The translations under genes were made by a program, and so were the position numbers. The notes beneath the pieces were generated by a model. The model was not told the DNA's origin. It did no database searches and saw only the letters and a list, made by a program, of their open reading frames with translations. From the IMG/VR virus record IMGVR_UViG_3300042939_000264, positions 1 through 53,393 of that record: a stretch of DNA of 53,393 bases; one strand, 5' to 3'. Source of the DNA: a virus. This document shows, one piece after another, positions 3,161 to 53,100 of the stretch (position 1 is the first letter of the stretch; each line of letters begins with the position of its first letter).

Positions 3161-3688
3161 TTATTTGCTCCTTTCTCTCATGTAGATTTGAAACCACGCT
3201 GGCAACCTTGAGCTTATAAAAACATAAGAGGCGGCATCGGCGGGAATATCGTTAACGATAGCAGTTATGGCGGTGTAACACGCTGGATTTGGGAAAATCA
3301 TTTTCCCATTATCGTGCAACAGTTTTGTGATCTCGTCAATCAAAGAAAACAAATCTGGAAAGTTTTTCTTTATATGCTCGTTAGCTTCATCCCATATTTG
3401 GTCTGGCTTTCCCTTCACAAATCCATTGCCCCACCCCGGAACTTTCGCCCCGTTCTCAATATACATTTTAGCAAAACCAATCGGGTCTTCACTTGAAAGC
3501 ATCTCCGTAACTTCTTGGACTGGTCCGTGTGGATTGCCTAGCATGGAAAGCGCAGCGATTACCGCATTGCCAAATCTTCCGCTGCTCTTTGCTGATAGGC
3601 TTACAGCGATAGATGATGGGTTGTCCCTAAATGAAGATTCAAAGTGGCACCGAGATACTATTTGGAGCAATTTAGTTGCAGATTCCAT
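3161..3688 (-). CDS. Citrate-synthase-fold protein, truncated and lacking two catalytic residues
   Basis: Three segments follow the order of the citrate synthase catalytic region. LGNPHGPVQEV matches the first catalytic-His motif (xGPxHGGANE; His54 from this start). VPGWGNGFVKGKPD matches GFGHxVYKxxDPR, with the catalytic His replaced by Asn88. FPNPACYTAI matches YPNVDFYSG, with the catalytic Asp replaced by Ala136, and the following SSRLPAW resembles the family's A-R-x-x-G-W. The product is about 175 aa against more than 370 for the enzyme, so the N-terminal half is missing. The start is uncertain: ATG 3688 was chosen, and ATG 3715 would overlap the upstream gene more. A palindrome site lies in the gene at 3247. 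It is probably a pseudoenzyme or has a changed activity. Confidence 0.55.
   Translation of the reverse strand: MESATKLLQIVSRCHFESSFRDNPSSIAVSLSAKSSGRFGNAVIAALSMLGNPHGPVQEVTEMLSSEDPIGFAKMYIENGAKVPGWGNGFVKGKPDQIWDEANEHIKKNFPDLFSLIDEITKLLHDNGKMIFPNPACYTAITAIVNDIPADAASYVFISSRLPAWFQIYMRERSK
3247..3260. promoter_or_regulatory. Palindrome site 1 (inner TTAA)
   Basis: Inside the citrate-synthase-like gene. Inner bases TTAA, perfectly symmetric. Confidence 0.75.
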
Positions 3689-4199
3689 AATTTTTAGATA
3701 TTTTTTCAACTCCATTGAAATGCGCGAAATGTGCAATATCAACTAGTTCAATCCTATAGTTCTTGCATATTTCATATTGCTCTTTTGGAAAGTTTCTGCC
3801 TCCAGAAACAATGCTCCATATCTCTTCTATTCTAGCATCTATCTCTGCATAGCTGAATGATGGATATAATTCCTTTTCTATATCAAGTTGTATTGCTTGC
3901 TTGTCAATCAACCAATCTGCATTTTCAATTCCACAATTGATAAGCGACTTCTTTACTTCTTCCTTGTCCCTATCAATGATAATGATGTTAATATCTTTTA
4001 CTTCACGTTTTATATCATTGATTCTGAATACCTGTCCAGTATCTACACTCCCTATTCCTTGACTCATTTTCTCTATAGCATGCTCAAATGAATCGCTTCT
4101 TGCTATTAGCTCATGCTCGCACCGGAGTCCTGCCGCATTAAAGAACGACGCCAACCAAGCCGTCCTCGATCTTGGGAGGCTCAACACGGCGAAGCTCAT
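3672..4199 (-). CDS. Sulfotransferase-like P-loop protein, 175 aa
   Basis: The N-terminus carries LPRSRTAWLASFF. This corresponds to the loop of PAPS-dependent sulfotransferases that binds the 5'-phosphosulfate, and short relatives occur in phages and bacteria. The body has alternating beta/alpha segments (VKDINIIIIDRD; a C-terminal ELVDIAHF). It starts in ATGA overlap with the tail adaptor gene upstream and overlaps the citrate-synthase-like gene by about 17 bp. The DNA looks visibly more AT-rich than its neighbours. It may modify a virion or host-surface component, but no substrate can be inferred. Other P-loop nucleotide-binding roles are possible. Confidence 0.55.
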   Translation of the reverse strand: MSFAVLSLPRSRTAWLASFFNAAGLRCEHELIARSDSFEHAIEKMSQGIGSVDTGQVFRINDIKREVKDINIIIIDRDKEEVKKSLINCGIENADWLIDKQAIQLDIEKELYPSFSYAEIDARIEEIWSIVSGGRNFPKEQYEICKNYRIELVDIAHFAHFNGVEKISKNYGICN

Positions 4200-5155
4200 G
4201 GCCAGAAGTAATAATCTTGCGCTCCAAAGAGGGCTTGCCTGTCAATCAGACCCTCCGGTCTGCGCGAGTCCACAAACTTGATCGGGCTTGCCGTTGGGAT
4301 TTCAGCGTCTTCAATTGTCTTCTCTTCTTCTCTGATCGCCAAATCCAGATTAGCCAAAAACTCGTTTTGTTTTCGGTTCTCTCTAGAATTAAGTGCCAGC
4401 ACAGCAAAGATCATGCTGTCCTTCTTGAACTCCACTAGATCGCTATCATCCTCAAGATCAAAATACTTGAGGCTGGCATAGATCGTCATGTAGTTGCATT
4501 GCTTTGGCAGGCGGAAGCGGCGGAACCACGGGTTGATATCCTGTGGTTGATAGATCGCCAATAGCAGGCTTGAGTTATTGTCTGGGTTGTAGGCATACAC
4601 CCTTACCCTACCTTTGGTTCTCGGCTTGCTCACGGCACGGAGTCCTTTAACTCGGATGCTGGAGAGCGCTCTGTTCGGCGGGTTAACTGTTGTGATAGGG
4701 ACTGTGTGGTATGTTGAATACTCGTCCTGCGCTTGGAATGTTAGCTCCACCCCAACATCGTCAGAATGTTCGACCATGACCGCTATCTGGTATGGTGCGG
4801 TAGTGTAGTCTTGGAAGACAACATGCCTCCCCCCGACCTCTGTGATCAGACGATGGCAGGATTGGTCGTAGGTATTAGCATACGCATCGGTGCTTGTGAA
4901 CCATTCATCGGCGAGGCTAATGTTGTGCTTGCCATACCATGCCAGCTTGATCTGCTCGTAGCGGTTTGGCAGCGTGAAGCAGTAGTTCGCGCAGCATACG
5001 CGAAAATACTCTGCCGTTGATAGCCAGCCGCGCTTGTCCCACAATAGCTCACGCGCAGCATTGACGGCTTTCTTTGCCCTCTCAATGTTGCACGATCCAC
5101 TATCGCCGACAAATCCGCGAACGGCCTCGGCCATCTCTAGAAAGGTAGATGGCAT
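4196..5155 (-). CDS. Probable tail tubular/adaptor protein (T7 gp11-like role), 319 aa
   Basis: The start MPSTFLEMAEAVRGFVGDSG, followed by a helical segment with many basic residues, a LPNRYEQIKLAW strand and a mixed beta region, resembles head-tail adaptor/tail-tube A proteins of podoviruses. It sits downstream of the nozzle-like 625-aa gene and a fibre-like gene. The start codon is immediately adjacent to the palindrome at 5156-5169, where a ribosome-binding site would normally lie, and no GGAGG is visible. The stop overlaps the sulfotransferase-like gene as ATGA. The assignment rests mainly on size and order. Confidence 0.55.
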   Translation of the reverse strand: MPSTFLEMAEAVRGFVGDSGSCNIERAKKAVNAARELLWDKRGWLSTAEYFRVCCANYCFTLPNRYEQIKLAWYGKHNISLADEWFTSTDAYANTYDQSCHRLITEVGGRHVVFQDYTTAPYQIAVMVEHSDDVGVELTFQAQDEYSTYHTVPITTVNPPNRALSSIRVKGLRAVSKPRTKGRVRVYAYNPDNNSSLLLAIYQPQDINPWFRRFRLPKQCNYMTIYASLKYFDLEDDSDLVEFKKDSMIFAVLALNSRENRKQNEFLANLDLAIREEEKTIEDAEIPTASPIKFVDSRRPEGLIDRQALFGAQDYYFWP

Positions 5156-5169
5156 TATCGGTAACGATA
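5156..5169. promoter_or_regulatory. Palindrome site 2 (inner GTAA)
   Basis: Directly adjoins the ATG (5155-5153) of the tail adaptor gene on the minus strand. Confidence 0.85.
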
Positions 5170-5852: not shown

Positions 5853-7730
5853 TTACGATGTGGCAATAGAGTAGTCCCAATATCTTTCTTGGCAACATAA
5901 ATTTGTCGGGCACTCGTCTTGATCTTCTGGGCAGTCGCCAATCGGACTGTCCTCGTTGTTCTTGATATTCGCCATGATTCTAACGCGATCTACTGTGGCC
6001 ACACCTTCCAACGAGACTTTGATCTGAAACTCGCTTCCCTCGATTGATGGTATCTCTGCAATCTCGTTGCACTCTGATGGATCAGGGGTTGTGAACTTGT
6101 AGCGTTTGTAAAGGTTGCCTCCCACGCGAGGGGTGCATTCCGCCTTTAAAACTGGGGAGCATGGCGGACATCCAAAGGTTGTTTCTGGCTTTAACTCAGA
6201 CCAGCATGGGTTGCTATCGGACCTATACTCAACAGACGATGTGATGTTGCCGGGTATCTCGCTCATCCACATCTCTCCACCTGTGAGCCTTTTTCTTAGA
6301 AACTTGTTTGTCACTTCTGATTTGTCAAAATCATACCTTCCAGTTGTAAAGAAGCTCTTAATTTGGACTGTTCCATTCTGACCAAAATCATCTCCAATTT
6401 GGTTCGTGATTTCATATAGACGATTAATGTTGTCATCGTCAAAGCTAAATCCGAAACCCCGCTTCTCTGTATTAATCATTGCAGTAAGAAGCTGAGTTGG
6501 CCGTATGCCAGTCCAGATTCCATTCCAACGAAATGTGATCGCACTATCTGGGGCTGGCGTTGCGCTCTGATCTAGGTCAAGCACAACCATTCCTCTGTGA
6601 TACCTGTGCAGGCCGGGAGCGTCCGTTCTTTTTGTTTCTGGGGCTACCGTATTAATAAGATAGTTGTCTGAAAACATCGTGCTCGCAAACTGCTTCATCC
6701 ACGGCGTGTCTCTGCCAACCCATTTGTTAACTTCTCTGGAAAGTTTGCGGAGAGAAAAGTAGCTGTAGAACTCAGACTGACTATTGGAATAAAAAGCCCA
6801 TCCATCATGCGAGCGGAACCATAGCTCTGAATTTACCGTGGTCACATATGGACTCGCACAGCCTCTGCCAATAAGTGAGATAAGCTGGATATTTGATGTG
6901 TTCCATTCCACTCTAGGCAGACTTACATCCATCGAGAACGCGCCATTTTCACATAAGACCACCAATACTCCTTGCCCGCGCAGGTTGCCAGACAAGGTTG
7001 GCATAACCTTCATCCCTGTAATATTCCCCATGTTGGCTGGAGTTCCAAATGCGCCACCCTCTGCCCAATAGGTAATCTCGGTAAAGTTTTCTGTGTTTAG
7101 CGTATCGTTGAACCCATTGCCGTAGATAATGTCTGAGGCGTAGATCAGATTAAACTTGTCTGATACGAACACGCGACCAAACGCATATTCCATTACCGTT
7201 CCAATCGGCATCTTGTTGAGATACGGATTGAGTCTTCGCGCATTCTCTGACATCTTCCCGCCCCATGTAATCGCGTTCTGGTATCCGTTCTGGATATATA
7301 CACGATCTTCGGCTTGCACGAACCATGTGTGCATTAAGCTAGGGTCGTTCCAGCCGTTGTTTTGCTTGGACGGGTCTTCTATGCCGGGGATCAAATAGGC
7401 ATACGCAAGATTGTTTACTATCTTGAGAAAGTATATCTTCCCAGCTATTGAACAGATTATTCCGTCGTTCGTATCGAAGTTAGTTTTACGATATGGATAT
7501 GCCCCTTGGAAGTTACCGGTTTGAATATCGTTAACGATAGTCTCTGGCTGGTCTTCTCCTGCTACAATCTTAATCTCCCGTATGCTTGGTCGTGTCTTGT
7601 TTATTCCTCCACGGAATGTTCTGTTAACCGATTCACTAACATAGTTCTCAGGCAAATACGATGGATGTGTAGCGGCATCTTGGGCGACTACAGAAAGAAA
7701 TCCATCGAATACTGATCCTTCAGTTGCCAT
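5853..7730 (-). CDS. Probable tail tubular/nozzle protein (T7 gp12-like role), 625 aa
   Basis: The protein is long and almost entirely beta, with repeated aromatic/Gly turns (for example GGAFGTPANMGNITGMKV and SELWFRSHDGWAFYSN) that look like propeller blades, as in podovirus nozzle proteins. The C-terminus carries clustered cysteines (CPEDQDECPTNLCC). Its size and its place two genes from the adaptor gene fit tail tubular protein B. A palindrome site lies inside the gene at 7526-7539. The start codon overlaps the end of the 44-aa gene upstream. Confidence 0.6.
   Translation of the reverse strand: MATEGSVFDGFLSVVAQDAATHPSYLPENYVSESVNRTFRGGINKTRPSIREIKIVAGEDQPETIVNDIQTGNFQGAYPYRKTNFDTNDGIICSIAGKIYFLKIVNNLAYAYLIPGIEDPSKQNNGWNDPSLMHTWFVQAEDRVYIQNGYQNAITWGGKMSENARRLNPYLNKMPIGTVMEYAFGRVFVSDKFNLIYASDIIYGNGFNDTLNTENFTEITYWAEGGAFGTPANMGNITGMKVMPTLSGNLRGQGVLVVLCENGAFSMDVSLPRVEWNTSNIQLISLIGRGCASPYVTTVNSELWFRSHDGWAFYSNSQSEFYSYFSLRKLSREVNKWVGRDTPWMKQFASTMFSDNYLINTVAPETKRTDAPGLHRYHRGMVVLDLDQSATPAPDSAITFRWNGIWTGIRPTQLLTAMINTEKRGFGFSFDDDNINRLYEITNQIGDDFGQNGTVQIKSFFTTGRYDFDKSEVTNKFLRKRLTGGEMWMSEIPGNITSSVEYRSDSNPCWSELKPETTFGCPPCSPVLKAECTPRVGGNLYKRYKFTTPDPSECNEIAEIPSIEGSEFQIKVSLEGVATVDRVRIMANIKNNEDSPIGDCPEDQDECPTNLCCQERYWDYSIATS
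7526..7539. promoter_or_regulatory. Palindrome site 3 (inner TTAA)
   Basis: Inside the nozzle-like gene. Confidence 0.75.
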
Positions 7731-9189: not shown

Positions 9190-9771
9190 TTAGGTTGTTT
9201 GGGCTTTGATTACTGCGAAAGCAATTACTATGGCTTCGCTAAGATTTCCTGAGGTCACATTGCGGACACTAATCATTGCTGACCCACTAGATGACTGCGC
9301 GTTTAGTGTATAGGCTCCAGCGGTTCCGCCAGATATGTGATTTAGAATCAAAACATCTCCGGATGAAATAACTGAATTCGTTAATGTAAATGAAACAGTT
9401 GTTCCGGCATTCAATGCGCTTGCATCCATTGTAATTTGACCAGATGGTCTATTTAGAATAACAGCAGTCGCTTTGCTGCCTGATTGAGTAATTGTTCCTC
9501 CTGCCCCAATCCCATAACCAATCCCAGATGTATTTGCATTTGCTAATATGTTTGCTGTAACAATTAAGTTGCCAGTCATTGTGCTGCCTGATTTGAGGAC
9601 AGCATTTGCCAATGTGGTTGCGGAATCTTCGGCAGACTGCTCTGCGTTCTGTGCATTTGCAAAAGCAGACTGTGCCGAACTATAGGCGAAGCGTGACAGC
9701 GCAGCAACATCTGTGCAGCATTCATTATTAATGGACGGGTATCCGCTAGGTGAGCATCCGCAGTTTGACAT
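9190..9771 (-). CDS. Short tail fibre-like protein, 193 aa
   Basis: The Cys-rich N-terminus (MSNCGCSPSGYPSINNECC) is followed by an Ala/Ser/Gln-rich helix around 25-55 (YSSAQSAFANAQNAEQSAED), a likely trimeric coiled coil. Then come fibre-like beta repeats (GNLIVTANILANANTSGIGY) and a C-terminal region with strands. A palindrome begins 2 nt upstream of the ATG (9774-9787) in place of a normal Shine-Dalgarno. It ends 4 bp before the 435-aa fibre gene. Confidence 0.55.
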   Translation of the reverse strand: MSNCGCSPSGYPSINNECCTDVAALSRFAYSSAQSAFANAQNAEQSAEDSATTLANAVLKSGSTMTGNLIVTANILANANTSGIGYGIGAGGTITQSGSKATAVILNRPSGQITMDASALNAGTTVSFTLTNSVISSGDVLILNHISGGTAGAYTLNAQSSSGSAMISVRNVTSGNLSEAIVIAFAVIKAQTT

Positions 9772-9773: not shown

Positions 9774-9787
9774 TATCGTTAACGATA
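9774..9787. promoter_or_regulatory. Palindrome site 4 (inner TTAA)
   Basis: Two nt upstream of the start of the short fibre gene. Confidence 0.85.
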
Positions 9788-9817: not shown

Positions 9818-10693
9818 TTACCTTGCCTCAAATAATTCGTATTCCGCTGGGAACATATTTCCCTTCATAGTTCCACTCGGCTGGTAGATTCGCAGCCACC
9901 ACGCTCCCGTTGGCTTCGGTGGTTTGCCTGTCTCGATGTGCCACCCTCCGTATCCATCTTCGTATTCTTCTTTGTAGCCTGCGATCTTCACATGGGTCTG
10001 CCTTTCCTGCACCACCTCGTCAGCTTGGTTGAGCCTGATTCTCTGAATGGCGACCTGCCAGCTTTCGTGGACATGGCCCGTAGCTACGATATCTGCGTCA
10101 CTCACATACACAGCTTGGCGGTTCGTCTGGATCACTCCGCGCGTGACTGGGCCTCCTCCTCCGCTACCGTGGAAATACCAGAGCTTGATGCTGTTGTTCT
10201 GGCGATTGCCGTTGCTCACATGGAACCTGACATAGCCCGAGTAGCCTCCCCGCCTTGCTAGGCTTCCGTTGATTCTTAGTCTCTCTGCAAGTCGTTCAGT
10301 TAAGTCGGTTTCGTGATTTTTGTGGATGGCCGATTCGTGATTGCCAGTCCCGCGAACCGTGAGCAATTCAGCATAAGGTTTAAGATATTCCGCCGCTGTG
10401 GTGACTAGCGAGTCGAGATAGCTGTCGTTCTGATGCTCTGGGCGGATGTCTTTCTTGCTGGCCCTGCGATCATACTTGCCCTGCATCGCGCAGAAGAAGT
10501 CGCCGAAGTCTAAGATAGGCGCGTTCTTCTTCACCGCTTCGTCTAAATGCTTCTTTAGCTTCTTCCGATCACACTTGGGGTTGTCCCAATGCACATCACT
10601 TTGTAGGAGGAACCATTGTTCATCCCCGACTTTGGGCAGGTTAATATCGAATATGTGGACATTCCTGCTCGATTCTCTGAATTTCCAACTCAT
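9818..10693 (-). CDS. Calcineurin-like metallophosphoesterase, 291 aa
   Basis: The metallophosphoesterase motifs occur in order: SDVHWD (about 33-38, D-x-H), LDFGDFF (about 60, GD), VRGTGNHESA (GNHE) and ATGHVHES (GHxH). These coordinate two metal ions that hydrolyse phosphate esters or diesters. The gene starts in ATGA overlap with the amidase and lies between the lysis cassette and the fibres, an odd place for a nucleotide-processing enzyme. The substrate is unknown; nucleic-acid or envelope phosphodiesters are possible. Confidence 0.85.
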   Translation of the reverse strand: MSWKFRESSRNVHIFDINLPKVGDEQWFLLQSDVHWDNPKCDRKKLKKHLDEAVKKNAPILDFGDFFCAMQGKYDRRASKKDIRPEHQNDSYLDSLVTTAAEYLKPYAELLTVRGTGNHESAIHKNHETDLTERLAERLRINGSLARRGGYSGYVRFHVSNGNRQNNSIKLWYFHGSGGGGPVTRGVIQTNRQAVYVSDADIVATGHVHESWQVAIQRIRLNQADEVVQERQTHVKIAGYKEEYEDGYGGWHIETGKPPKPTGAWWLRIYQPSGTMKGNMFPAEYELFEAR

Positions 10694-11280
10694 AGATGTA
10701 GTTTCAATTCTTGCATGAACCTGTCATATTCTGACGGCTTCAAGTCGTTTTTCCGATTCGGGCTGACTGTGCGGTGATCAGTCACATCCTTTATCGTTAA
10801 CGATAGTTTCTTCATTCTGGGGAGAAGATACTCTATGGCTGATTCAATCTGTTCTTTCGTTAGAGGCTTTTCGTAGGTATCCCCGGCGAATGCCACCCCG
10901 AGGCTCCAGCTATTCAAGTCTGGCTTGCCCCTCCAGAAGCTCCTGCCTGCATGCCATGTCCTCTGGTTGTCGCCTGCCAGCACCGTGCGCTCTCCATTCT
11001 CTGCGATGATCACGTGGTAGCTGACCATGCTCTCTGGACGTGTGCACCAATCGACACTCCCTGCGTAGCTCCCTGATGTGTGGTGGAGGACTACAGCCTT
11101 GGGGGTGAGTATCCTTCCCCTAGAGAAGTTAGGGGTTTGCCGACTAACTTCTTTATACTTTGGCTTCACTTGTCGCGGAGTGTCCGTGTCGGGATTTCGT
11201 AGCTGAATGTCCCGTAGTCTGTCGCGAGACCTATTCGCAAGGTTTCGCAGCCAGTCAGCAATAATATGACCAACATGCAT
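10690..11280 (-). CDS. Endolysin: N-acetylmuramoyl-L-alanine amidase (Amidase_2), 196 aa
   Basis: The zinc-amidase signature is clear from about residue 60: VVLHHTSGS (first zinc His), SYHVIIAENG, TWHAGRSFW, SLGVAFAG and a terminal DHRTVSPNRKNDL with the second His and catalytic Lys. It cleaves the bond between muramic acid and the stem peptide to lyse the host. The first about 55 residues are basic and carry no clear signal peptide, so release is expected to depend on the holin-like proteins encoded upstream. A palindrome lies in the gene (10792-10805). Confidence 0.9.
   Translation of the reverse strand: MHVGHIIADWLRNLANRSRDRLRDIQLRNPDTDTPRQVKPKYKEVSRQTPNFSRGRILTPKAVVLHHTSGSYAGSVDWCTRPESMVSYHVIIAENGERTVLAGDNQRTWHAGRSFWRGKPDLNSWSLGVAFAGDTYEKPLTKEQIESAIEYLLPRMKKLSLTIKDVTDHRTVSPNRKNDLKPSEYDRFMQELKLHL
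10792..10805. promoter_or_regulatory. Palindrome site 5 (inner TTAA)
   Basis: Inside the endolysin gene. Confidence 0.75.
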
Positions 11281-11894: not shown

Positions 11895-14618
11895 TTATAG
11901 TCCGTAGGCGATTTCGACTGCATCCACGCTTGCCACCCAGCGCCATGTTTCACCAGCAATTCCGGTGACTTCCACGCGAAGGGCTTCCGTGGCTCCGACA
12001 TCGTATGCGCTCAAGGCAATGCTAGTGCCTGCTGCGTTATCGGAACCGATAGTGACGGGAGCATAGACTTCCGTGCAAGTGCCTGCGACATTCTTGAGCG
12101 CATACTGGCGCAGGTAGTGGGCTACTGCGGAGCCGTCGCTCTTGATGCCCGTGATGTTGATCGTGAGGCCGAGGACTTTCCCGCTGGGGATCGTGAGGCG
12201 GGTCGCGCTGCCGTCCAAAAATAGCTCGACTGCGGCGTTCGTCGTGGTCTTGTTCCGAAGAACGAACCGGGCGCGTTGGGCATCGCCTGCGGCTGCAAAG
12301 CCTCCAGAAGCATGGGACTGTTGCCCAAATCTATCTGCCAAACCACGGCGACCTCCTAAAATACTACCAATAGTTGCAGTAACAGAGTTTCCTTGCCCTG
12401 TTTCCCCTCCACCACCAATAAACCCTTCTTGTCCGCTTACCGCGTTAGAATGACCGCCAACAATGGCTGATCGGACGCCAGATGCCGCATTGCTCTGCCC
12501 GCCACCAATAAACGCATTTGCCTGCGAGGCATTATTGGATGAGCCGCAAACAACTCCAGAGTTTGTGAGTGAAGCTTGATTGCTTGATCCTGCTCCGATA
12601 AAAACAGAACCGGTTCCGCCCGTGCCAGTCACATTACTGCTGCCAGCACAAATTACGCTTGTCCCGTTTTCCGCGATACATTGATTGGATGATCCTCCGC
12701 CAATGAAATTGTCAATTCCATTACCGTTCGGATGACCAACGATATTTCCTGTTCCTCCGCAAATTATACCCCTCTGTGATCGAACTGTATTGTTTGTTCC
12801 AGAGCCAATAAATGAATTTGCCCCCAACGCTACTTGAGTGTTTAATGTTCTTGAAACTTGCAAGTCGATTGCATTGTTTCCCCTCGCATTCCCGCCAGTC
12901 GCCGTGCCGTCTGGTTTCGGGCCGAGGATGAACGCCCCCGTGCCTTTCGGCGTGAGGACGAGATCGGAATTAGTCGCGGTGGTGTTCTCGGAGAGGGTGA
13001 CATTCGTGCTGACGCTGTGACCTGTGAGGAGCGTTCCAGCGGTGATGTTGGTGGTGAAGTTGATCGCTCCGCCTCCAATGCTGGTTTCTACTTTGAATGT
13101 AGCTCCAGAGACTTCACGCACGAAGTAGTTCGTTGTCGTGTTGAGTCCTGCGCCACCCGTGAGCGCGGTGAAGCGGATTGGCTGTCCATTGGCGAATGCT
13201 GTTCCGGGTGCGGTAATTACATCCGTGCCTGCATCGCCCGTGATACCTGTGACGGAGACAATCGCATCTTCCACGATGAGTCCGCTGCCCTGCACAGTAA
13301 ACCCACCCGTCCCATCTGCGCGGGGGACTGCGTTGTCCACAGTTCCGACTGTTCCGCCGATACCTGTGATGTTGCCGCCAGAGACTGTGATGCCGACTGG
13401 GGTGAGTTGCTCCATCACACCCGTGCCTGCGGTGCTGCGGCCTACGATGCGGTTCGTGGCGATGCTGGTCGAGATGTCGGGTGTTGCGCCTCCCGAGCTT
13501 GTGAGCGGGGCGGTAGCGGTGACATTGGTGACTGCTGCGCCAGCGGTGGCGGTGAGTGTTCCTCCGGTAAGCGACAAGCCTACGCCTACGGTGATCTCTT
13601 CTGCTGCGCCGACTCCTGCGGTAGTCCGACCCAGCAGCCGGGCAGTATTCATCGTCAGCCCAGTCGTAGCGGTATACAGCCCTGCGCCGATCTTACCATT
13701 GAAGGCAGTCCAGTCTGAACTAGAGAGCGCACCGCGATTGGCTGCGCTTGCTGTGGGAATATTGAAGGTGTGGGTAGCGGCTGTGCTAGCAATGTTGAAG
13801 TCGGTGCCAGTAGTGCCAGTCGCAAAGAACTGAATTTGGTCGGTCAGACCATTGAGCGCGGCCAATCCCGTCGAGAAGGTGGTGATGATCTGGCTCTGGG
13901 TATTGCCTTCAGTATTCAGAGTGATCGTGTGCCCGCCCAAGCTGCTGCCAATCACGCGCACGGCCAAGCGGTCTGTGAGTGCGAGAGTGGTGCTAGCGGG
14001 GATGGCTACCGTGAGAAGGTGGATGTCTGAAGTGGTATTGGCGATAGTCGCCGCAGGGCTGGTCGTGCCGATCTGCGTGAAGGTGGCTCCGTCATACTTG
14101 TAGAGTTCCACCGCCAATTGCGGGTTGCCACTAGAGGTAAGGCAGTAAAGCTGAAAGGTGAAGTTGCCTTGCGGGATCAAGAGCCGATTCGGGTCGCCCG
14201 CATCCGTGATGAAGTAGGCGGTTGTATTGCCAGCGTTGATCGTAAAGTTGGTCTGCGCTGCGCCAGCAGGAACCTTGTTGATCTCGTAATACGGGTTACC
14301 AAGTATCGTGCCTTGGCTCACCGATCCGTTTAAGTAGTAGCTGACCGAGCTTCCTCCACCCGCTGCCACAGGGAAGTTCGCAATCGTGGCATCTCCCCGA
14401 ATATACTGATTTGCCAATCCATACCCAATCGCCACAGGACCGCTGACATCTTGGATGTTCAGAGTGCGCGTGGTCGTGGGGCTGATCGCGCTGGCTTCAA
14501 ACTTGAACCGCTTCGTCTTGTTCCCATCATCAAAGATCGTAAACTTGTTGTCGGGGAAGACTGGCGCACCCGGCGCGTTGTCGAGCTTACCTGTGAATGG
14601 ATTGAATTTGTAAGGCAT
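11895..14618 (-). CDS. Large tail fibre/adhesin with YadA-like beta-roll, 907 aa
   Basis: The N-terminus (MPYKFNPFTGKLDNAPGAPV) is a typical fibre attachment region ('FNPFTGKLD'). The middle has fibre repeats (RLLGRTTAGVGAAEEITVGV and IVGRSTAGTGVMEQLT are related). Around 615-760 there are irregular repeats of the type FIGGGSSN, VICAGSSN, FIGAGSSN, VVCGSSNN, FIGGGQSN and IVGGHSN. These are the hallmark of the left-handed beta-roll of YadA-type trimeric adhesins. The C-terminal about 150 residues form a compact beta domain. It is probably the long receptor-binding fibre. A palindrome lies at 12038. Confidence 0.75.
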   Translation of the reverse strand: MPYKFNPFTGKLDNAPGAPVFPDNKFTIFDDGNKTKRFKFEASAISPTTTRTLNIQDVSGPVAIGYGLANQYIRGDATIANFPVAAGGGSSVSYYLNGSVSQGTILGNPYYEINKVPAGAAQTNFTINAGNTTAYFITDAGDPNRLLIPQGNFTFQLYCLTSSGNPQLAVELYKYDGATFTQIGTTSPAATIANTTSDIHLLTVAIPASTTLALTDRLAVRVIGSSLGGHTITLNTEGNTQSQIITTFSTGLAALNGLTDQIQFFATGTTGTDFNIASTAATHTFNIPTASAANRGALSSSDWTAFNGKIGAGLYTATTGLTMNTARLLGRTTAGVGAAEEITVGVGLSLTGGTLTATAGAAVTNVTATAPLTSSGGATPDISTSIATNRIVGRSTAGTGVMEQLTPVGITVSGGNITGIGGTVGTVDNAVPRADGTGGFTVQGSGLIVEDAIVSVTGITGDAGTDVITAPGTAFANGQPIRFTALTGGAGLNTTTNYFVREVSGATFKVETSIGGGAINFTTNITAGTLLTGHSVSTNVTLSENTTATNSDLVLTPKGTGAFILGPKPDGTATGGNARGNNAIDLQVSRTLNTQVALGANSFIGSGTNNTVRSQRGIICGGTGNIVGHPNGNGIDNFIGGGSSNQCIAENGTSVICAGSSNVTGTGGTGSVFIGAGSSNQASLTNSGVVCGSSNNASQANAFIGGGQSNAASGVRSAIVGGHSNAVSGQEGFIGGGGETGQGNSVTATIGSILGGRRGLADRFGQQSHASGGFAAAGDAQRARFVLRNKTTTNAAVELFLDGSATRLTIPSGKVLGLTINITGIKSDGSAVAHYLRQYALKNVAGTCTEVYAPVTIGSDNAAGTSIALSAYDVGATEALRVEVTGIAGETWRWVASVDAVEIAYGL
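12038..12051. promoter_or_regulatory. Palindrome site 6 (inner GAAC)
   Basis: Near the 3' end of the 907-aa fibre gene. Confidence 0.7.
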
Positions 14619-14619: not shown

Positions 14620-14910
14620 TTATGTCAAAGTTACGGTGTCGAGCAAAGCGTCGTCATCAGTTGGCACTCCACCCACATAAGTAAGCGTAAGTGTGCCGAC
14701 TGTAGTTCCTCCAGAACCTCCTTCTTTGAAGATAACAGTTCCGATATTGTTTGTCGAACCGATATAGTTGAGGTCGATGAAGTCGTAAGTAGGAATCGGG
14801 AATCCGCCCTCCGCTTCAACTGCGGCCTCGATGGCCTCTAGTTGTTGGAGGATTTCCCAGTTCTGCACATCAGGTGTGCTTTCCTTGAAGCAGTTTTCAG
14901 AGAGTGCCAT
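14620..14910 (-). CDS. Small virion-region protein, 96 aa
   Basis: Begins MALSENCFKESTPDVQNWEI and ends in a Thr/Gly-rich beta segment (GGTTVGTLTLTYVGG). The SENCF...NWEILQQLEAIE stretch resembles part of the 95-aa product of the preceding gene (ISENCFVQMTEDMQWYHLNE), so the two may be related or partners. It is 1 bp before the 907-aa fibre gene and is likely a small fibre-attachment or decoration protein. Confidence 0.5.
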   Translation of the reverse strand: MALSENCFKESTPDVQNWEILQQLEAIEAAVEAEGGFPIPTYDFIDLNYIGSTNNIGTVIFKEGGSGGTTVGTLTLTYVGGVPTDDDALLDTVTLT

Positions 14911-14958: not shown

Positions 14959-14972
14959 TATCGTTTCCGATA
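14959..14972. promoter_or_regulatory. Palindrome site 7 (inner TTTC)
   Basis: In the intergenic gap after the 95-aa gene, two bases past its stop. Confidence 0.75.
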
Positions 14973-39316: not shown

Positions 39317-39348
39317 ATCGGGCGTGAAGTTCGACCCTTCCGCCCGAT
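39317..39348. terminator. Hairpin between convergent genes
   Basis: ATCGGGCG/CGCCCGAT (8 bp) with a 16-nt loop lies between the ends of the plus 62-aa and minus 39348 genes, next to the palindrome at 39349. There is no U-tract, so termination is tentative. Confidence 0.35.
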
Positions 39349-39998: not shown

Positions 39999-40082
39999 GG
40001 GCGGGACGGTAACCCTCCGCATCGGCTCTGTCTACAAAATTTTGTTGTTCTCCCCGAACGCTAACCCTAAACTAAAAATGAA

Positions 40083-40274
40083 ATGAGAGACACATCGAAA
40101 AGCCAAATCAAAAAGCTCATGCGCTTGCTTGAGTGGGCCGACACCTACTTGCAGGCAATGGAAAACTGCACCTCTGGCGGTATCGGTGACGATATTACTA
40201 GGCTACGCCAGCAGATTGAGCAGGTTCTTGAATGCGACCCCAACGCAATCAGGGAGGACATCTACCATGACTAG
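40083..40274 (+). CDS. Small helical protein, 63 aa
   Basis: Starts MRDTSKSQIKKLMRLLEWAD; helical. A palindrome lies in the gene (40181-40194) and encodes part of GIGDDITR. It overlaps the next gene by 8 bp. Confidence 0.5.
   Translation: MRDTSKSQIKKLMRLLEWADTYLQAMENCTSGGIGDDITRLRQQIEQVLECDPNAIREDIYHD
40181..40194. promoter_or_regulatory. Palindrome site 19 (inner GTGA)
   Basis: Inside the 63-aa gene. Confidence 0.7.
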
Positions 40275-40485
40275 AGAACAATACGCACTCGAACGAGCAC
40301 AAAGAACAGGGGAGTCCCCGGTGACTCTTGCTTACATGCTAGAACCATTTGATGTCCTATGGGTCGAGCCTGCCCGCGATACCGATGGAGGCTGGTGCTT
40401 GTCCGACCTCCAGAACAATGTCCAATACGGGCCGTTTTACTATGAAGACCACGCATACGATTACGCTATCCAATTAAGACAATGA
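40267..40485 (+). CDS. Small hypothetical protein, 72 aa
   Basis: ATG 40267 gives MTREQYALERAQRTGESPVT; a central VLWVEPARDTDGGWCLSDLQ and a Tyr-rich end (FYYEDHAYDYAIQLRQ). Its stop overlaps the helicase start as ATGA, so they are likely co-expressed. No family is recognised. Confidence 0.5.
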   Translation: MTREQYALERAQRTGESPVTLAYMLEPFDVLWVEPARDTDGGWCLSDLQNNVQYGPFYYEDHAYDYAIQLRQ

Positions 40486-42273: not shown

Positions 42274-42287
42274 TATCGGTAACGATA
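42274..42287. promoter_or_regulatory. Palindrome site 21 (inner GTAA)
   Basis: In the hairpin-rich non-coding region just after the candidate small RNA. Confidence 0.8.
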
Positions 42288-43601: not shown

Positions 43602-44564
43602 TTATTTCTCCTTCAAGAATGGCACCCATTGATCTTCAGCGGGGTCATACCAAGATTTCTGTGCTAGGTCAATAAGCAAGTGGTGAGGCTCCAGCTTGGC
43701 CGGGATGCTTCGTAGCACCTCCGAGTTGCTAGTGTTGCCTGCATTAAGACAAAGGTAGCGATGTCCTAATGGAGCTTGACCCTTACCTTGCTCTGCCTTC
43801 ACTCTGTCTCTCACCTCGCTGGAGGATAGCTTCTCTTCTTTGGCCTTCTCTAGTAGGTCTAGCTTCTTAGTCTCTGTGAGGTCAGCGTTGCCGATCTCGC
43901 GGTAGACTGTGAAGGGTAGCATAGGGTCTCTCTTTGCAGCAGGGAACGCCCTACAAGCCCGTGCGTAGCCGCTAACCGTGCTGTAGCTCTTCTTGAACTG
44001 CGAGCAGAGTTGGTTCACCACATCTTCATGCCCAGCGTTCTCAAGGGCGACCACCGAATCTCCGATGATCCATTGTGCGCCTGACTCTAAGGCGAGGCCG
44101 AAGCCAAAGGCTCCAACCCAGTCCTGCATAGTGACATCCCCGCGAGGAACGCATTGGGTCATACCTGCGCCCAAGTCGAACTTCTTACTGAAGCTACCGA
44201 GTTCGATACCTTGTGCTGAGTTGACTAGCTGGCTCTTCTCGCACTCCACTACAGGCTCATCGTCTTCGATCTCTTCTAGCTCATCATCCTCTGGCTCATC
44301 TGCCAAGTCAGCCTCTAGTTCGTTGGCATACTCCAAGTCAGAGAGGATGCGTTCAAAAACCATGACCACCTCATCCGGCACATCGTCGCCGGGATACTCG
44401 TCGTTCATGGCCATCAAGAAGAGCTTCTTCACCTTGTCCAGCGTCCACTTGATTCCCTTGTATTCTTGTAGTGCCCACTCTACCAACTCCTGCTGGTAGA
44501 CTTTGGCTGTGACTATCTCGCCCGCCCGATCATCGAGAGGGGACATTAACATGAGTTCTTTCAT
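43602..44564 (-). CDS. Candidate DNA-binding protein with HTH-like region, 320 aa
   Basis: Residues about 1-125 are acidic and include EADLADEPEDDELEEIEDDE. From about 145 a helical domain WIIGDSVVALENAGHEDVVN... with KKSYSTVSGYARACRAFPAA looks like the winged or HTH segment of plasmid or phage regulators. The C-terminus is mixed. By position it is early and coupled to the small HTH gene upstream, so it is an alternative candidate for recognising the genome-wide palindrome. Confidence 0.4.
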   Translation of the reverse strand: MKELMLMSPLDDRAGEIVTAKVYQQELVEWALQEYKGIKWTLDKVKKLFLMAMNDEYPGDDVPDEVVMVFERILSDLEYANELEADLADEPEDDELEEIEDDEPVVECEKSQLVNSAQGIELGSFSKKFDLGAGMTQCVPRGDVTMQDWVGAFGFGLALESGAQWIIGDSVVALENAGHEDVVNQLCSQFKKSYSTVSGYARACRAFPAAKRDPMLPFTVYREIGNADLTETKKLDLLEKAKEEKLSSSEVRDRVKAEQGKGQAPLGHRYLCLNAGNTSNSEVLRSIPAKLEPHHLLIDLAQKSWYDPAEDQWVPFLKEK

Positions 44565-44773
44565 AGTTCTGCGAAGTTTTGTAATGCGAGGGCGATACTC
44601 CCTCTAGGTTCCACTTCCCCCGAGAGCCAGCGCGATACCTGCACCGCGCCAGCTTTGTCTTGGGATATCCATTCTTCTTTGGGAAGAAACTTATTAAGAT
44701 GCTGCGGCATGTCTTTGACCATGATGTCATTTCTGACCATCGAGTCTAATACCGCGTTAAGTAGTTCATTCAT
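44561..44773 (-). CDS. Small HTH regulator, 70 aa
   Basis: ATG 44773 gives MNELLNAVLDSMVRNDIMVK. The segment AGAVQVSRWLSGEVEPRGSI has the helix-3 look of Cro/XRE domains (VSRWxSGxxxP), although it is compact. It overlaps the SSB-like gene by 8 bp and the next gene by 4 bp. Likely a second DNA-binding regulator in the early operon. Confidence 0.55.
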   Translation of the reverse strand: MNELLNAVLDSMVRNDIMVKDMPQHLNKFLPKEEWISQDKAGAVQVSRWLSGEVEPRGSIALALQNFAEL

Positions 44774-45596
44774 CCCAAGGAATCTCTGGTTGGTTCTCAA
44801 GGTCTTCGGGATCACCGCCAAGTTGGAGGTCGTTTCCGGCCTGCTCTACGCACTTCGCGAATGGCGTATCAAAGCCTTTGGCAAGGTAATGCTCATAGAG
44901 TTTGGTCAATGCTGGCTTGCCTACCTCTCCAAGTTTCTTGCCTTTGTTGCTACCACTCGGCACGATGGCTGATGCCCAGTCTTTTGGATCGGGTGTCTCT
45001 TCTTTCTTCGGAAGGATAGTAATGCCCTTCTTGTTGGCTTCGATGAAGACAGAGGACACATAGCTACGAAGGGTCTCTTCGTTGTATGCGAGCGACGTGT
45101 AGCCCAACCGGACCAGCTTGTTACAGAGCATATGCAACTCAACGATCTTCTCGATAGCTTCCACAGGGTCTTTCACCATCTGGACTACCTGAGTGAAGGT
45201 TGTGTTGGTTTGGGTAGAAACGGGTGTGTTTGCGGGCATCTCCTGATTATCGTCACCGATAACGATGTTCGCGCTCTTGGTTACTTTGATCAGGTCGCGG
45301 TCTACCTTAGTCCCATCCTTCTTGCTGTAGCTCTCATGCTCAAGTGAGACTCCATGCAGACCATGCTTGCTGCGGGTGCTAACGAGCGTGACCATTTGCT
45401 TCTCTAGGCGGGCCGGGTCTTCCTCTCGGTCGAAGAACTTGAGTCCGTAGGTATCCCCGTCGATCTCAATCTCTCCACCTTGAATCTTAAACTCGCCTTT
45501 CGGCCCTTTGAATGTGCGGGGTTCCCACAGTTTTGTGATCTTGCCCGTGACTTTCTTGATGATGTCTTTCTGTTCTATGTTTTCTAGTTGTTTCAT
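44766..45596 (-). CDS. SSB-like OB-fold protein, 276 aa
   Basis: N-terminal VTGKITKLWEPRTFKGPKGE...GGEIEIDGDTYGLKFF with a final beta region reads as an OB fold for single-stranded DNA. The middle is helical, and the C-terminus ends PEDLENQPEIPWDE. This acidic hydrophobic tip resembles the SSB tail that recruits partner proteins. It is followed by a nuclease gene. It contains a palindrome (45248-45261). The family is not certain. Confidence 0.55.
   Translation of the reverse strand: MKQLENIEQKDIIKKVTGKITKLWEPRTFKGPKGEFKIQGGEIEIDGDTYGLKFFDREEDPARLEKQMVTLVSTRSKHGLHGVSLEHESYSKKDGTKVDRDLIKVTKSANIVIGDDNQEMPANTPVSTQTNTTFTQVVQMVKDPVEAIEKIVELHMLCNKLVRLGYTSLAYNEETLRSYVSSVFIEANKKGITILPKKEETPDPKDWASAIVPSGSNKGKKLGEVGKPALTKLYEHYLAKGFDTPFAKCVEQAGNDLQLGGDPEDLENQPEIPWDE
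45248..45261. promoter_or_regulatory. Palindrome site 22 (inner TCAC)
   Basis: Inside the SSB-like gene. Confidence 0.7.
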
Positions 45597-47095: not shown

Positions 47096-47109
47096 TATCG
47101 GTAACGATA
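47096..47109. promoter_or_regulatory. Palindrome site 23 (inner GTAA)
   Basis: Upstream of the early-operon promoter, 19 bp before its -35. Confidence 0.85.
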
Positions 47110-47143: not shown

Positions 47144-50100
47144 CTAGCGGTTCGGAAGCATCCTCAAAAATTTCTTGTAGTCGCGCTGGTATTGCTTGTC
47201 CATTTCAGCAATTCGCGCATACCGCTCCTCGCTCACCTTGTCTTTAAGCCACCTCAAGAATGCCTTTCTTTCGACCTCATCCATAGGTCCGCTGCCGAGT
47301 CGGAGAGGCTGTCTGTTCCTAGCTCCAGTCGAGATGGATTGGATGGCATTTAAGCGATCAGCTTTCGGCAATCCTTTGAGATATTCCTTGGCGAAGACTG
47401 CCGCCATTTGAGGCTCGCCTCTTTGTAGGTAGGAAGCAATCTTGCGGTTGATTGGGGTTCTCTCGCTTGGCGTAACCTCAGTCGGCCTACGCATACGGAA
47501 CTCGATGCCCGCTTCCTCTGCCCAACGGCGGGAATACTTGTTAATGTTAGCCACCTCCCTGCGGAACATTTCTTCTTTCACTCCGGGGATGTCTTCTCTC
47601 CCAGTCCAGCCAGCAATGGTCTGGCCTAACTTCTGTGTGGTGCGGTATGCAGAAAGAGTGCTTTTGGTGAAGTTGTCGATGTCTCCAGCGGTAATCGTTT
47701 TCTGGTCGTAAAGATTCTGGATGAATGTGGCGGCCTCTTTCAGCACTCCGAGAGCCGGGGGATCGAGAGGATTCTTCACGCGCTCGCGGTCCTGCCAATC
47801 AAAGAAGAACTGTGCATAGTTTCCAATGAGTCCAAGCGCACCGATACCGATTAGGTTATACCACGCCCGCTCTGATGCGAGGTAGAGCGCCGCAGCTTTA
47901 TCGTCATCCTCCAACTCCTTGAGCATGTCTTCGTATTCCGGTCCTTTCATCAGAACCCCGAATAGAATGTCTCTCAAGCGGAGAAGAACTTCGCCTCCAA
48001 CATAGGCCGAGCCGAGCCACATCATTGCAGGAATCAAGGCCAACGCCCTGCCCTGCGCCTTGGTGACTGTGGTTGGAATCTGCGAAATATCTATCCTACG
48101 CTCGTCTCCAAGCTCTCGGCGAAGCGTAAGTGTGGCGCGGTATAGGGCTTGTCTTGTTGCGTCTGGCAACTGCATCGTCTCGCCTTTTCCCGTCATCGCC
48201 TTGAACAATGGCTCAAAGGTATTCTTCCAAGCCATTCGCATGACCTGTGTTGAGAACTTCTGATACTTGAATAAGAACTTGCCAATCGGATTGTCGATGA
48301 AGACTGGCACTTGGTCTACCGTATAGCTGCCTTGGGATATGTTGGCAAAGTAGCGAAGCACACGAGAAGTCTCCGGTCCCGAGCCTTGCTCTACTAACAA
48401 CTTGTCCAAATCAAATTTGTTTCTTGTTAGCCAGAACGAGGATCGGCGAGCGTAAGAACTATTTGGATTCTTTGCGTAGGCATCAATCACGGAGTTGAGG
48501 AAAGCCTTTCCGATAATATAAGACTGCGTTCTTACCATCTGCTCTACGGGAGTGAATCCTGACCACTTGAGCAAGAAGTCTGTGACCTTCTGGCCAGCTT
48601 TGGCAACCTTGCTTTCATCTATGATCACTTGATGGTCACCAACGATGTTCATCAAGTCTCTGCTGGTCACAGCCAAGAGTTGCGCGTCTAACATCTGTCT
48701 CTTCAGATCGGTTGTCATTTCACCAAGGCTCTTGATGAACGAACCAAGCGAGCCGGGTTGGCCGATCATCGCATTAAGTGTGGAGCCACCAATAAAGTTA
48801 AGGATGGCAGATGCTGGGTTACCAAGCTGCAATCCAGTTGCCCAGATATTCATCGCCGCCATTCCTTTGATGTATGGATCATTCGGGAAGTAGTTCACTA
48901 CCCGCTCCCTAACGCTCTCAATGTAGTCGCGTGTTCTTTGGTCTGTAACCTTTTCCATCTCACGATCCCAGAGCGTCTTGGATTCTTGCGTGGTCTTCTG
49001 TCCGAACTGTTCAATTCGGGAGACATGTTGCGACCACCTTGCAACATAGTCGGTCATCACCTGCATGCTGTAATCGTAGAGTTTTTCAGGAAGCGCAGCG
49101 CCACGGCCCTTCTCAATACCAGAGAAGTAGTCATTTTCGTAGGCTTCCGGTCGATATGGACGCAGGTATTTCTCTGCCTCTTCCGGTGTGGCAATCTTCT
49201 TCTCATCGAGCAACGCTTGGACAATCTCATTGTATTCCTTTGCGTATTTCACATTGTCTGTGAGTGCCCGCTGATATTCTGGCTTGAGTTGGCGGGGCCA
49301 GAAATTCGGAACCCGCCCGATCTTCCTCCACGCTTTCTTGCCTTGGTCGTATACCTTAACTCCGATATTCTGGTTCTCTGTGCCTGATACCTCGCCAAAC
49401 TTCTGCCAAGCATCTACAATTTTGATAGCCACAGGATTCATCTTGGCGCGAACTTCTTCTGTGTTGCGGCCATTCTCTTGTGCAGCGAAGAACTCTTGCA
49501 CATCCTTGTCGATCTGTTCTCGATCCTTTTTGCGCTGGGATGAATATTCGCGGAAGGATGGGAGGAGAATCTTGTTTGCGGTTTCAAGTCTGCGCCTAGC
49601 TCCCTCAAAGTAATCAGCGACAGCATTGCCCAGCTTCGTGAATCCATTTCTGCGAAGGCGATCCACGGCAGACTCAAAGAACCCGCGAAGGAAAAGGAAG
49701 TTTTTAAGGTGGCTGTCGATCTTGCGGTTGATCGGCATGTTGTCTTCTGGCCCGATGTCGATGCCATTGGCGATTGCTTGCGGCACACTCTGTCCTTCGG
49801 GTGATTCGGGTGCTGGCCCCGTAGGTTGCTCTTCCGCCGCTGGCTTCCTTGGCTCTGCGGCCATCCTTCTTATGTCCGGCGAGGTGGCGCGGAACCTCTG
49901 CGAGAGAGGGATCAACTTACCTGCATCGTCGTAGGTGAAGGGGTCGGCGGATTTGATTTGCTCTGGTTGAAAAGCAACAATCTCATCCATAGAGTCATCA
50001 ATAACTCCATCATATCCGCGAGAAGTTAACCATTGCCTAGCTTCCTTTCCGCTTAATTTATAACCCATTTCACGCAATGTTTCTGTGGTCGCGGGGTTAT

Positions 50101-53100
50101 TGAATTTCAAGTAAACTCGCATCAAGCGGCTGCTTTTTAACCATCCACTCCAAGTTCCTTTCAGGTTTTTTGTAAAATAACTTCCTTGGACTCTACCGTA
50201 TGGGCTTGTGCTTGTATCGAAAACAGTAAATTCTTTTTCCGAGGAACTACCATGAATCGCTGGTGTATCATACCCCGCCTTCTTCGCCGCCTCATCCACC
50301 ATCCTCTGGGCAGTCTCCATATCCCCGCGCTCTACCGCTGCAAGATACTCGGCATCCATCGCAGTTAGATCGTCGATTATCTTTCTAGCCCCGCCTTCAC
50401 GCGAGATAGCCTCTCCTGCCTTGTATCGGTCAAGTGCTGCGGTAAAGACCGAGATAGCGTCTCTATCGCTGATGTTGAACTTAAATCCTAGCTTGTTCAG
50501 GAATCGCTTAATAGCGTCCAGCATACTGCGCCAAGCGGGAGCCTGCTCTTCGTTAATGAACTGATCCACGAAGGCTCTGACCATCTTCTCCTCCAAGCGG
50601 ATTTCGCCTGTCTCTTTGTTGTATGCCGTCTCGACATACGCATCTAATTCGGCTCTAGCTTCGGGAGATAGCGATGCAATAAACTGATCGAATGCTGCGC
50701 GGAACTCTGGATCGCCGAAGATGTAGTGTCCGAGTTCGTGTGTAATCGTATCGCGGATGTCGTCGTTCTTATTCAGGTAAGCGAGGTTGACGATGATCTC
50801 TCCCGACTCAGGGATATATGCTGCCTTGAACTCAAAGTCTTTATCCGTGCTGTCGTTGACGATTGTAAAGCCCTCTGGGATTTCCCCACCGAACATATCG
50901 TATGCGACATCGAAGACTTCCTCGAAAGTGTATTGCTGGTCTGGAGGCGTGATTAAGATGCCTTCCGGTGTAGTGTCGATTGCTTGGCGGCGAATGTCTG
51001 GAGATGTTGGCTGCGGAATAAATCGTGCGCTATACCAATTTGAAAGATTTGGAGGTATTTCAATTGGGTCAATTGACTGAATATTTGTTAAAGGATACCC
51101 ATATTTTTTCTCGCCAGATTTAATGTCGAATTTAGATCGCTCCTCAACAAGGTGTTTGTCTTGATCTGCTCTAAATTCATTTGCATTATTGTATACAATT
51201 GGCTCTCCAATATCTGCATATCCAACTAAAGTTGCCTTACCCTTACCAGTTCTTACAATGCCAATTCGCTGACCTACATATCGACGAAGACTATCTGTAT
51301 CCCTTGTCTCAATTGTTTTTTCTCCAGAAAGAATTTGGTCAGTAAAATTCTGCGTCTTGTCGTTTATGTTAATCCCAATTGTTGGATATTGATCCGCAGC
51401 AGTCTTCCTAGCTCCCTTGCCCTTTACCTGCTTCAAATCTCTTGCCTCGACAACCTGCGTCTCGCCTGTCCTCTCGTTCTTTACAGAGTAATACTGCTCG
51501 CCTAGCTCACGCTCTGTTGCGGACTGCGGAATCACCTCTTGGATTGTGTAAGTCTGCGGAGAACGCCCTAGCTTTACGCGGCTTCCTACTGCAATCTCCG
51601 CTGGAACCTCTGGAGCAGGCGCGGCTTCTGGAGTGGGTGCGGTTGGTGCGGCGGGTTGGTAGACATACAAGTCGCCTTGCTTGGTGTAGCCTTCGGGGAG
51701 TGGGACATTATTAGATTCTACGACTACGGCAGATACTGGTTGAGGGCTTACATCTTTAATAAATCCTTCAGATTGGAACGCTGGACCTGTTCTAACTCTG
51801 CCATTTTCTACTGTGTAGAATGTTCCTTTCTGTGAAACCTTAATATCATTACCCTCTATATCCTTCCATACAACAGGATCGGCTTCTGGAGTTATTGTTT
51901 CAAAAAGTCGGGAGCGATACTTTGGCAATAACTCATTGTATCGTGCCTCATCTTTTTTAGAGAACTTAACGCCCTTCACTTTACTTTGCGCTTGTCCTCG
52001 CCTTTCCATCAAGTTCTTTAGTTCAGCGAACTCGGATTCCTCTACAGGAGCAGGCGTGATAGCGGGAGCTTCTGCTGGCGCTGGCGTTACGGGTGCGGCC
52101 TCTCCAGCGGGCGTTATCGTTTCCGATACTGGCGCGGTCGTTACTGTGGGAGCTTCTGCTGTGGGTGCAGGCTCAACTGGCGCGGCGATCTCTCTGGCGA
52201 GGCGGGCTTGCTCGGTTTCTACGGTTTCGCCAGATTGCTTCTTGAGCGTGGAAAGTTCTGTCTCTACCTTCTTAATCGCCGTTGATAGCTCTTGTCCCTC
52301 TGGAGTATTGGGATTAATGCTAGATAGCGCAGAGCGGAGGTTATCAATCGCATTCTCCTTCTTGGTAATCTCGTCCACGATAACCTTGCTAGTCGTATCG
52401 GTTGGCGATACAGTTAGCTGCCTTGCCATTTGAGTTGATTGCTTCTCGATCTTGCGCTCGGCTTGCTGCTCTGGCGTCAGCACTTCTACCGCGCCAGCCA
52501 CACCGCCAAGAATAGCGGCAGGCCCGACAGCCATGCCAACTGCTTGCGGGACACCAGCGAATGTATCGACATCTGCCCCGAGATTTTGCAATGCAATATT
52601 GGTTGCGACCTTCTCTTGCCCTTCCTGCAATGTTTCAATAGGAACCTCGCCAGCAATTCCTTTAAGCCCTCCCTTGATCACATCCTTAATTGATCGTTCG
52701 GACACTTCCTTGCCCGTTCTGGTAAGCATACGGGTGATGATTCGTTCGGCACCTGTGCTAGCTGCTGCCGCCCCCAAACCCGCAGACAAGAAGATTTGCG
52801 GCAGGTTCTCCCCAAATGTAGCCTGCGCTTCAGTCGCTTTGCTCCTAGCCTCATCTTCTGGCACACCTTGATTAATCAAGTAATCGTAGGAGCCTTGGTA
52901 GATTTCTCCTTTAGCCGTGCCCATCCCTTGCGCCGCGCCAACGCCAGCCTGCAACGCCATCATCCCCCCACGGGTCAACTGCGCTGCCTTGCCAGCCAAT
53001 CCAGCGGCCAAGTTCGGGATCATGTAGCCTGCGGTCTGCGCCAAGGTTTCAGCGGGAGCCATCTTGAATGCTTCAAGACCAGCGAGAAACTTGTCCGTCA

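Follow-up and report, generated by a model that had tools for sequence, protein, structure and literature searches.

Why does a phage genome carry the same short palindrome two dozen times, and which protein would read it? This question is raised by the viral DNA record IMGVR_UViG_3300042939_000264 of IMG/VR (positions 1–53,393; this whole stretch of 53,393 nucleotides is referred to as the window), throughout which the palindrome TATCGKNNMCGATA is scattered. Our analysis revealed that the palindrome is a lineage-wide trait of an uncultured, abundant phage family and that its copies are selected as DNA itself. Judging from sequence comparisons, the 24 palindromes may be specific sites for a dimer of the protein encoded by gene 43602–44564, acting as a genome-wide organizer or silencer; we assign this reading a probability of about 50%.

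Twenty-four copies of a palindrome on a circular genome

The two ends of the record carry a 127-bp direct repeat (1–127 and 53267–53393), which indicates a circle with a unit of 53,266 bp. All 24 exact copies of TATCGKNNMCGATA listed in the initial annotation were found at their positions, compared with 0 in 100 dinucleotide-preserving shuffles, in agreement with the excess that it had claimed. A looser pattern with the K/M positions relaxed (TATCGNNNNCGATA) returned the same 24 copies and added none, and a search of the window for sequences one mismatch away from the arms identified just three further places; the set of sites is therefore sharply defined. The gaps around the circle measured 832–5019 bp (0.8–5.0 kb had been reported) and, also as annotated, the base adjacent to the arm was T or G in 48 of the 48 half-sites (31 T, 17 G). 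The two halves vary independently: the combinations T/T, T/G, G/T and G/G occurred 9, 7, 6 and 2 times, compared with 10, 6, 5 and 3 expected under independence. Such a half-site pattern, together with the selection at the DNA level described below, would fit the proposed dimeric DNA-binding protein.

Alignment of sites from relatives showed that the site is longer than 14 bp: a T is present outside each arm in 88% of cases (both halves pooled), and the two central bases prefer T/A. The real site appears to be about 16 bp long, with the consensus TTATCGKTAMCGATAA; concrete sequences representing this family are TTATCGTTAACGATAA and TTATCGGTAACGATAA. Since the bases beyond about 18 bp around the sites are unrelated to one another, the palindrome is not a copied repeat.

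Distribution in related phages and in bacteria

No annotated relatives of the window were found at the DNA level, and a search of the literature for the palindrome sequence returned nothing relevant. IMG/VR was scanned with TATCGTTAACGATA and the palindrome was counted in whole records. The records formed two sharp groups, with either 1 copy or 3–32 copies, the number in the latter being roughly proportional to length. The single-copy records are chance matches. At each locus with several copies, the encoded proteins are homologues of those of the window or, in one case (L047, the record of a distant cousin, G033), to those of G033. This cousin has few genes in common with the family and contains 9 exact copies of the family palindrome, which came out ahead of all other dispersed palindromes when G033 was scanned blind (shuffles reached at most 3).

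A motif-blind set of 80 loci was then chosen by terminase only, using gene 21462–23339. This gene appears terminase-like from its sequence (a family-library search gave no match) and has 253 relatives in IMG/VR. The palindrome was present in all 80 loci, at 0.438 copies per kb, and it occurs throughout the family at conserved places.

In 16 bacterial genomes, drawn from the matches listed in a genome scan, 1–13 copies were counted per 1–8 Mb. The palindrome belongs to the phage lineage, since its density in these genomes is lower by a factor of at least 100. The same counts bear on the idea that the sites are bound by a chromosome-organizing protein of the host, borrowed by the phage. A shared host could explain the same motif in the distant G033, but the scan gave scattered single matches only, among the matches listed, and the multi-copy viral contigs all come from one phage family; with the poverty of the 16 genomes, this makes a borrowed host protein very unlikely.

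Two further observations concern other genomes. In the Lentisphaeria genome behind locus L326 (G083; 2.9 Mb), the pattern occurs 13 times, for the most part as TATCGTTGACGATA; these copies may belong to a small regulon of the cell that uses a similar operator. Over 10.4 kb, the unrelated viral contig L104 (IMGVR_UViG_3300043787_000001) carries five copies of CGTTANTAACG, which may represent a further system of dispersed palindromes.

Selection on the sites, their placement and spacing

The sites recur at the same places across genomes whose proteins are about 45–80% identical. Within gene 5853–7730, site 3 (7526–7539) is an identical TATCGTTAACGATA in the same codons of 19 of 19 genomes, with a synonymous-position identity of 1.00 inside the site and 0.55 in its flanks. 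The corresponding values are 0.91 and 0.42 for the terminase-like gene (site 10, TATCGGAACCGATA, 23225–23238; kept in 12 of 13 genomes) and 0.94 and 0.57 for DnaB. In the helicase gene (40482–42104), site 20 (TATCGGCGACGATA, 41215–41228) covers the codons of the residues LSATI and is found in 8 of 20 genomes: those that bear it use TTA TCG GCN ACG ATA, while the site-less genomes encode the same residues by other codons, with synonymous differences only. This constraint refutes the view that a repeat has spread or that base composition produced the copies by chance, for which nothing speaks beyond the repetition itself; given also the empty shuffles and the unrelated flanks, this view is next to impossible.

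Sites are gained and lost while their density stays similar. The DnaB-like gene of the window (29922–31148), for example, carries its site (site 15, TATCGTTGACGATA, 30758–30771) at a different codon than most relatives. The initial annotation had stated that about half of the sites lie within genes and half between them; the count holds (11 of 24 are intergenic), but this wording masked a strong intergenic preference, since only 10% of the possible positions are intergenic (P about 1e-5). Several sites take up the very short gaps that separate the stop codon of one gene from the start codon of the following one. Site 14 (TATCGTTACCGATA, 29905–29918) fills the whole gap up to the DnaB start codon, and site 16 (TATCGTTAACGATA, 34024–34037) occupies a 17-bp stop-to-start gap.

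The spacing in the window is more even than random (coefficient of variation 0.54; P=0.0008), and its minimum gap of 832 bp was reached in 0 of 5000 random placements. Most near-complete relatives, which are not mutually independent genomes, are also evenly spaced, the exceptions being G001, G024, G031 and G033.

This placement recalls the stoperators of mycobacteriophage L5, one of the parallels drawn in the initial annotation. Whatever their reader, the sites could be stoperator-like transcription roadblocks that silence a dormant genome: like L5 stoperators they are dispersed, even and intergenic-leaning, and several of them are lodged between the stop codon of one gene and the start codon of the next (PMC9283540), and their clade-specific variants (see below) resemble drift between immunity types (PMC6550527). 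Yet the L5 sites lack symmetry, follow the direction of transcription and are each occupied by a monomer (PMC9283540); the site studied here is a palindrome, and half of the copies lie within genes, on both strands. No integrase or ParA was recognized in the window, where many genes are unannotated, and a collection covering the genomes of 84,980 species of bacteria and archaea yielded no terminase relatives. A strict stoperator is disfavored by the palindromic site and this lack of evidence for lysogeny. The L5 parallel is therefore weak, and roadblocks of this kind are an unlikely explanation.

A related palindrome in a sister clade

The genome G047 (IMGVR_UViG_3300010354_000003), whose DnaB is 59% identical, contains no copies of the family palindrome and 8 copies of TTGTTNAACAA. 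About two dozen contigs of its clade were gathered from IMG/VR through homologues of 43602–44564, without regard to palindromes. These sister-clade loci lack TATCG sites, except for one copy in L410, and their records longer than 40 kb carry 4–9 copies of TTGTTNAACAA each, versus 0–2 for a reversed-pattern control. A dispersed palindrome of their own, TMTTGTTNAACAAKA, was observed in G047, L389–L391, L393–L413 and L468, with additional one-mismatch copies in G047; TATTGTTTAACAATA is a concrete sequence of the sister-clade site.

The half-sites are TATCGKT in the family of the window and TMTTGTT in the sister clade. When extended (TTATCGKT and TTMTTGTT), they align at 7 of 8 positions, and the sister dyad is longer by one base. 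By our estimate, agreement this close would arise by chance in roughly one case in a thousand; the related half-sites suggest a homologous reader.

Two other ideas concerning this clade were rejected. TTGCGN5CGCAA is not a dispersed palindrome of G047, as it forms a single tandem array (31183–31527, units spaced 33 or 66 bp). A single recognition-helix residue (T versus A) does not explain both motifs, because in the sister clade either A or H accompanies a single motif.

Candidate readers of the palindrome

Besides an HNH nuclease, an exonuclease and structural or packaging proteins, the family, G033 and G047 have the 43602–44564 protein in common. This protein is judged the likeliest reader because it is the sole non-nuclease DNA-binding protein common to both clades and G033; of the three candidate genes named in the initial annotation, it is thus the one that emerges from the sequence comparisons. 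It is encoded on the minus strand, comprises 320 amino acids (aa) and, according to NCBIfam and a structural model, has a putative central LmbU-like or ParB/Noc-like helix-turn-helix (HTH), FKKSYSTVSGYARACR. A homologue is present in every family genome covering the region. The central part, which includes FKKSYSTVSGYARACR, is the most conserved; the N-terminal part is absent from the G033 homologue. No relatives of this protein were found in annotated phages or plasmids.

The only curated family matched significantly was LmbU in NCBIfam (NF038070, E=2.5e-7), and no sequence-level match was found in PDB. An AlphaFold2 model (pLDDT 79) was compared using Foldseek, which placed Noc (7nfu) first (probability 1.00, E 0.12), with Spo0J at a probability of 0.75 and ParB at 0.82 (rank 8). 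The ParB parallel proposed in the initial annotation would therefore be consistent with the predicted fold. Aligned by eye with a ParB sequence, FKKSYSTVSGYARACR appears to line up with the ParB/Noc recognition region. The contact residues of ParB and Noc have been described (PMC7383237). Moreover, LmbU has a palindrome as its binding site, and Spo0J was the basis on which the HTH of LmbU was modelled (PMC6510168); this lends independent support to the LmbU/Noc/Spo0J grouping.

Several points weigh against 43602–44564 as the reader. The LmbU score of 30.8 bits is far under the curated cut-off of 125, and the Foldseek E-values are weak (0.12–0.7). ParBc of Pfam was not matched by any of 21 members of the protein family, and ParA was not found in the window. 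The stretch just upstream of 43602–44564 itself contains no site, and autoregulation is therefore not indicated. The centers of ParB and Noc sites are conserved, while that of the palindrome is loose. Finally, the correlation between motif and protein may coincide with phylogeny, since it comprises three lineages only. As no ParB-type N-terminal domain was recognized, we do not claim membership in the ParB family, and with no ParA found, neither CTP-driven clamp sliding nor partition is predicted.

The main rival reader is the protein of gene 25693–26007 (minus strand, 104 aa), which has an Xre-type HTH (Pfam HTH_31, E=1.5e-6) and, in its model, a HipB-like fold resembling HipB and P22 c2. As a HipB/434-like dimer it would read the sites as operators and serve as a genome-wide global repressor. 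HipB recognizes TATCCN8GGATA, with TTATCC half-sites (PMC3376134) close to TTATCG, which makes an Xre dimer on TTATCG plausible, and 25693–26007 supplies the Xre-type HTH protein expected at such operators. The fixed arms and the loose, AT-leaning center also resemble classical repressor operators. In the window, the gene has site 12 (TATCGTTACCGATA, 26056–26069) 48 bp upstream, and G005 and G013 each carry a site in the corresponding region; a homologue is present in 41 of the 44 terminase loci with sufficient flank, and its recognition helix is nearly invariant in the family. However, G033, which retains the palindrome, yielded no homologue, and neither did G047, whose clade has the related half-site. 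The site closest to the Xre gene on its upstream side is at least 439 bp away in most relatives, and the half-sites of HipB are 4 bp farther apart (N8 versus N4). We consider this reader possible but doubtful. It is possible that G033 has an Xre-type reader in its unrelated HTH_3 protein (likely L167:16859–17053). The absence of the Xre gene from L216, L219 and L224 was uninformative as a test, these loci being rearranged or having too short a flank.

The third annotated candidate, the 70-aa HTH protein of 44561–44773, was rejected, since it is present in just six family genomes and G033. Its gene sits between 43602–44564 and 44766–45596.

If 43602–44564 is the reader, its predicted dimer would bind the palindromes through the ParB/Noc/LmbU-type HTH and, loading at sites every 2–3 kb, would cover the whole genome. 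Even coverage of replication and structural genes alike points to an action on the whole molecule, i.e. organization, tethering or global silencing. The protein would then play a genome-wide role like that of Noc on the Bacillus chromosome or KorB on plasmid RK2; where sites adjoin start codons, it would also affect transcription locally (repression or roadblocks). The identity of the reader, its dimeric binding and the consequence of binding are what we infer here. A more specific picture is put forward tentatively, as we hold it to be well short of even odds: a chromatin-like array of a CTPase-less LmbU/Noc-type protein at evenly placed palindromes, in what are probably non-integrating tailed phages, the clades diverging by drift of half-site and gap (TATCGKT with an even dyad versus TMTTGTT with one extra base).

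Location of the remaining sites and other features

Eight of the remaining sites lie within genes: site 1 (TATCGTTAACGATA, 3247–3260) in the open reading frame (ORF) 3161–3742, site 5 (TATCGTTAACGATA, 10792–10805) in 10690–11280, site 6 (TATCGGAACCGATA, 12038–12051) in 11895–14618, site 8 (TATCGTTACCGATA, 18114–18127) in 17041–18333, site 18 (TATCGTTCCCGATA, 39349–39362) at the 3′ end of 39348–40022 (minus strand), site 19 (TATCGGTGACGATA, 40181–40194) in 40083–40274, site 22 (TATCGTCACCGATA, 45248–45261) in 44766–45596 (at a different codon of the same gene in most relatives), and site 24 (TATCGTTTCCGATA, 52115–52128) in the 2043-aa ORF 47144–53275. The 5′ end of this last ORF lies inside the terminal repeat, and the gene may run across the join of the circle.

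Four other sites adjoin genes of the minus strand. Site 2 (TATCGGTAACGATA, 5156–5169) immediately precedes the ATG of 4196–5155, a gene with a site at most 150 bp upstream in 17 of 20 genomes. Sites 4 (TATCGTTAACGATA, 9774–9787) and 13 (TATCGTTGACGATA, 28501–28514) lie 2 bp ahead of the ATG of 9190–9771 and 26642–28498, respectively, and site 9 (TATCGTTAACGATA, 21066–21079; kept in 10 of 15 genomes) is located 10 bp upstream of 18572–21055. The intergenic site 7 (TATCGTTTCCGATA, 14959–14972) is upstream of 14620–14910, which has a site within 55 bp upstream in 11 of 11 genomes compared, and site 17 (TATCGTTAACGATA, 35027–35040) is right behind the stop codon of 34805–35023. Sites 11 (25205–25218), 21 (42274–42287) and 23 (47096–47109), all TATCGGTAACGATA, are intergenic.

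Shine-Dalgarno sequences were present at 13 of 66 starts in the window and at 24 of 227 orthologue starts, compared with 14% of random positions; since start codons lack these signals, the host probably initiates translation without them. Bacteroidota-type promoters were unconvincing, with 33 copies of TANNTTTG in the window versus 24.6 expected. Gene 37243–38112 gave a very strong match to DUF7227 (E=5.8e-89) and, among the family genomes compared, is shared only by the close relative G013.

Comparison with known systems

Systems of this kind, in which a single protein reads dispersed palindromes, are already known. In the literature searched, we found no description of the variant present in this phage lineage, with 43602–44564 as its candidate reader. 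Other cases of dispersed protein-binding palindromes come from a small number of chromosomes, plasmids and temperate phages. In the present lineage, for which no sign of lysogeny was found, they are kept at a density of about one per 2–3 kb, genes included. If the proposed reader is correct, the two sister clades would show the divergence of such a site and its reader.

HipB operators have TTATCC half-sites, similar to TTATCG, that are read by an Xre dimer, but they have an 8-bp gap and form a group of four at a single promoter. The stoperators of cluster A mycobacteriophages, which terminate elongation once the repressor is bound, are similar in their number (more than 20 dispersed sites), frequent location in short intergenic gaps and clade-specific variants; they differ in being asymmetric, oriented and monomer-bound, and probably also in belonging to temperate phages. 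In Bacillus phage SPbeta, one phage protein, MrpR, likewise binds an element (SPBRE) repeated across the phage, but this is a 15-bp promoter-region motif and MrpR is a tyrosine-recombinase-like prophage repressor (PMC10516654).

The LmbU family resembles the candidate reader in sequence and uses a Spo0J-like HTH on a palindrome. Its members, however, regulate antibiotic genes in actinomycetes, and the LmbU site, CGCCGGCG, is unrelated to the palindrome described here. KorB of plasmid RK2 (PMC11790492) has a ParB-type HTH, acts on palindromes (OB) dispersed over a replicon and affects distant promoters. It is a CTP-dependent sliding clamp with a partner, KorA; neither such a domain nor such a partner was recognized in the window.

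Noc of the Bacillus subtilis nucleoid occlusion system has about 70 scattered palindromic sites (NBS; PMC4331003). As in the window, these are palindromes of 14–16 bp scattered around a replicon, and the HTH of Noc may be like that predicted by the model of 43602–44564. The differences are that the replicon is a phage, with about one site per 2–3 kb compared with about 70 per Bacillus chromosome, that the center of its site is loose, and that no ParB-type CTPase domain was recognized. Should the reader indeed prove Noc/LmbU-like, the palindromes would represent a phage counterpart of chromosome-organizing systems.

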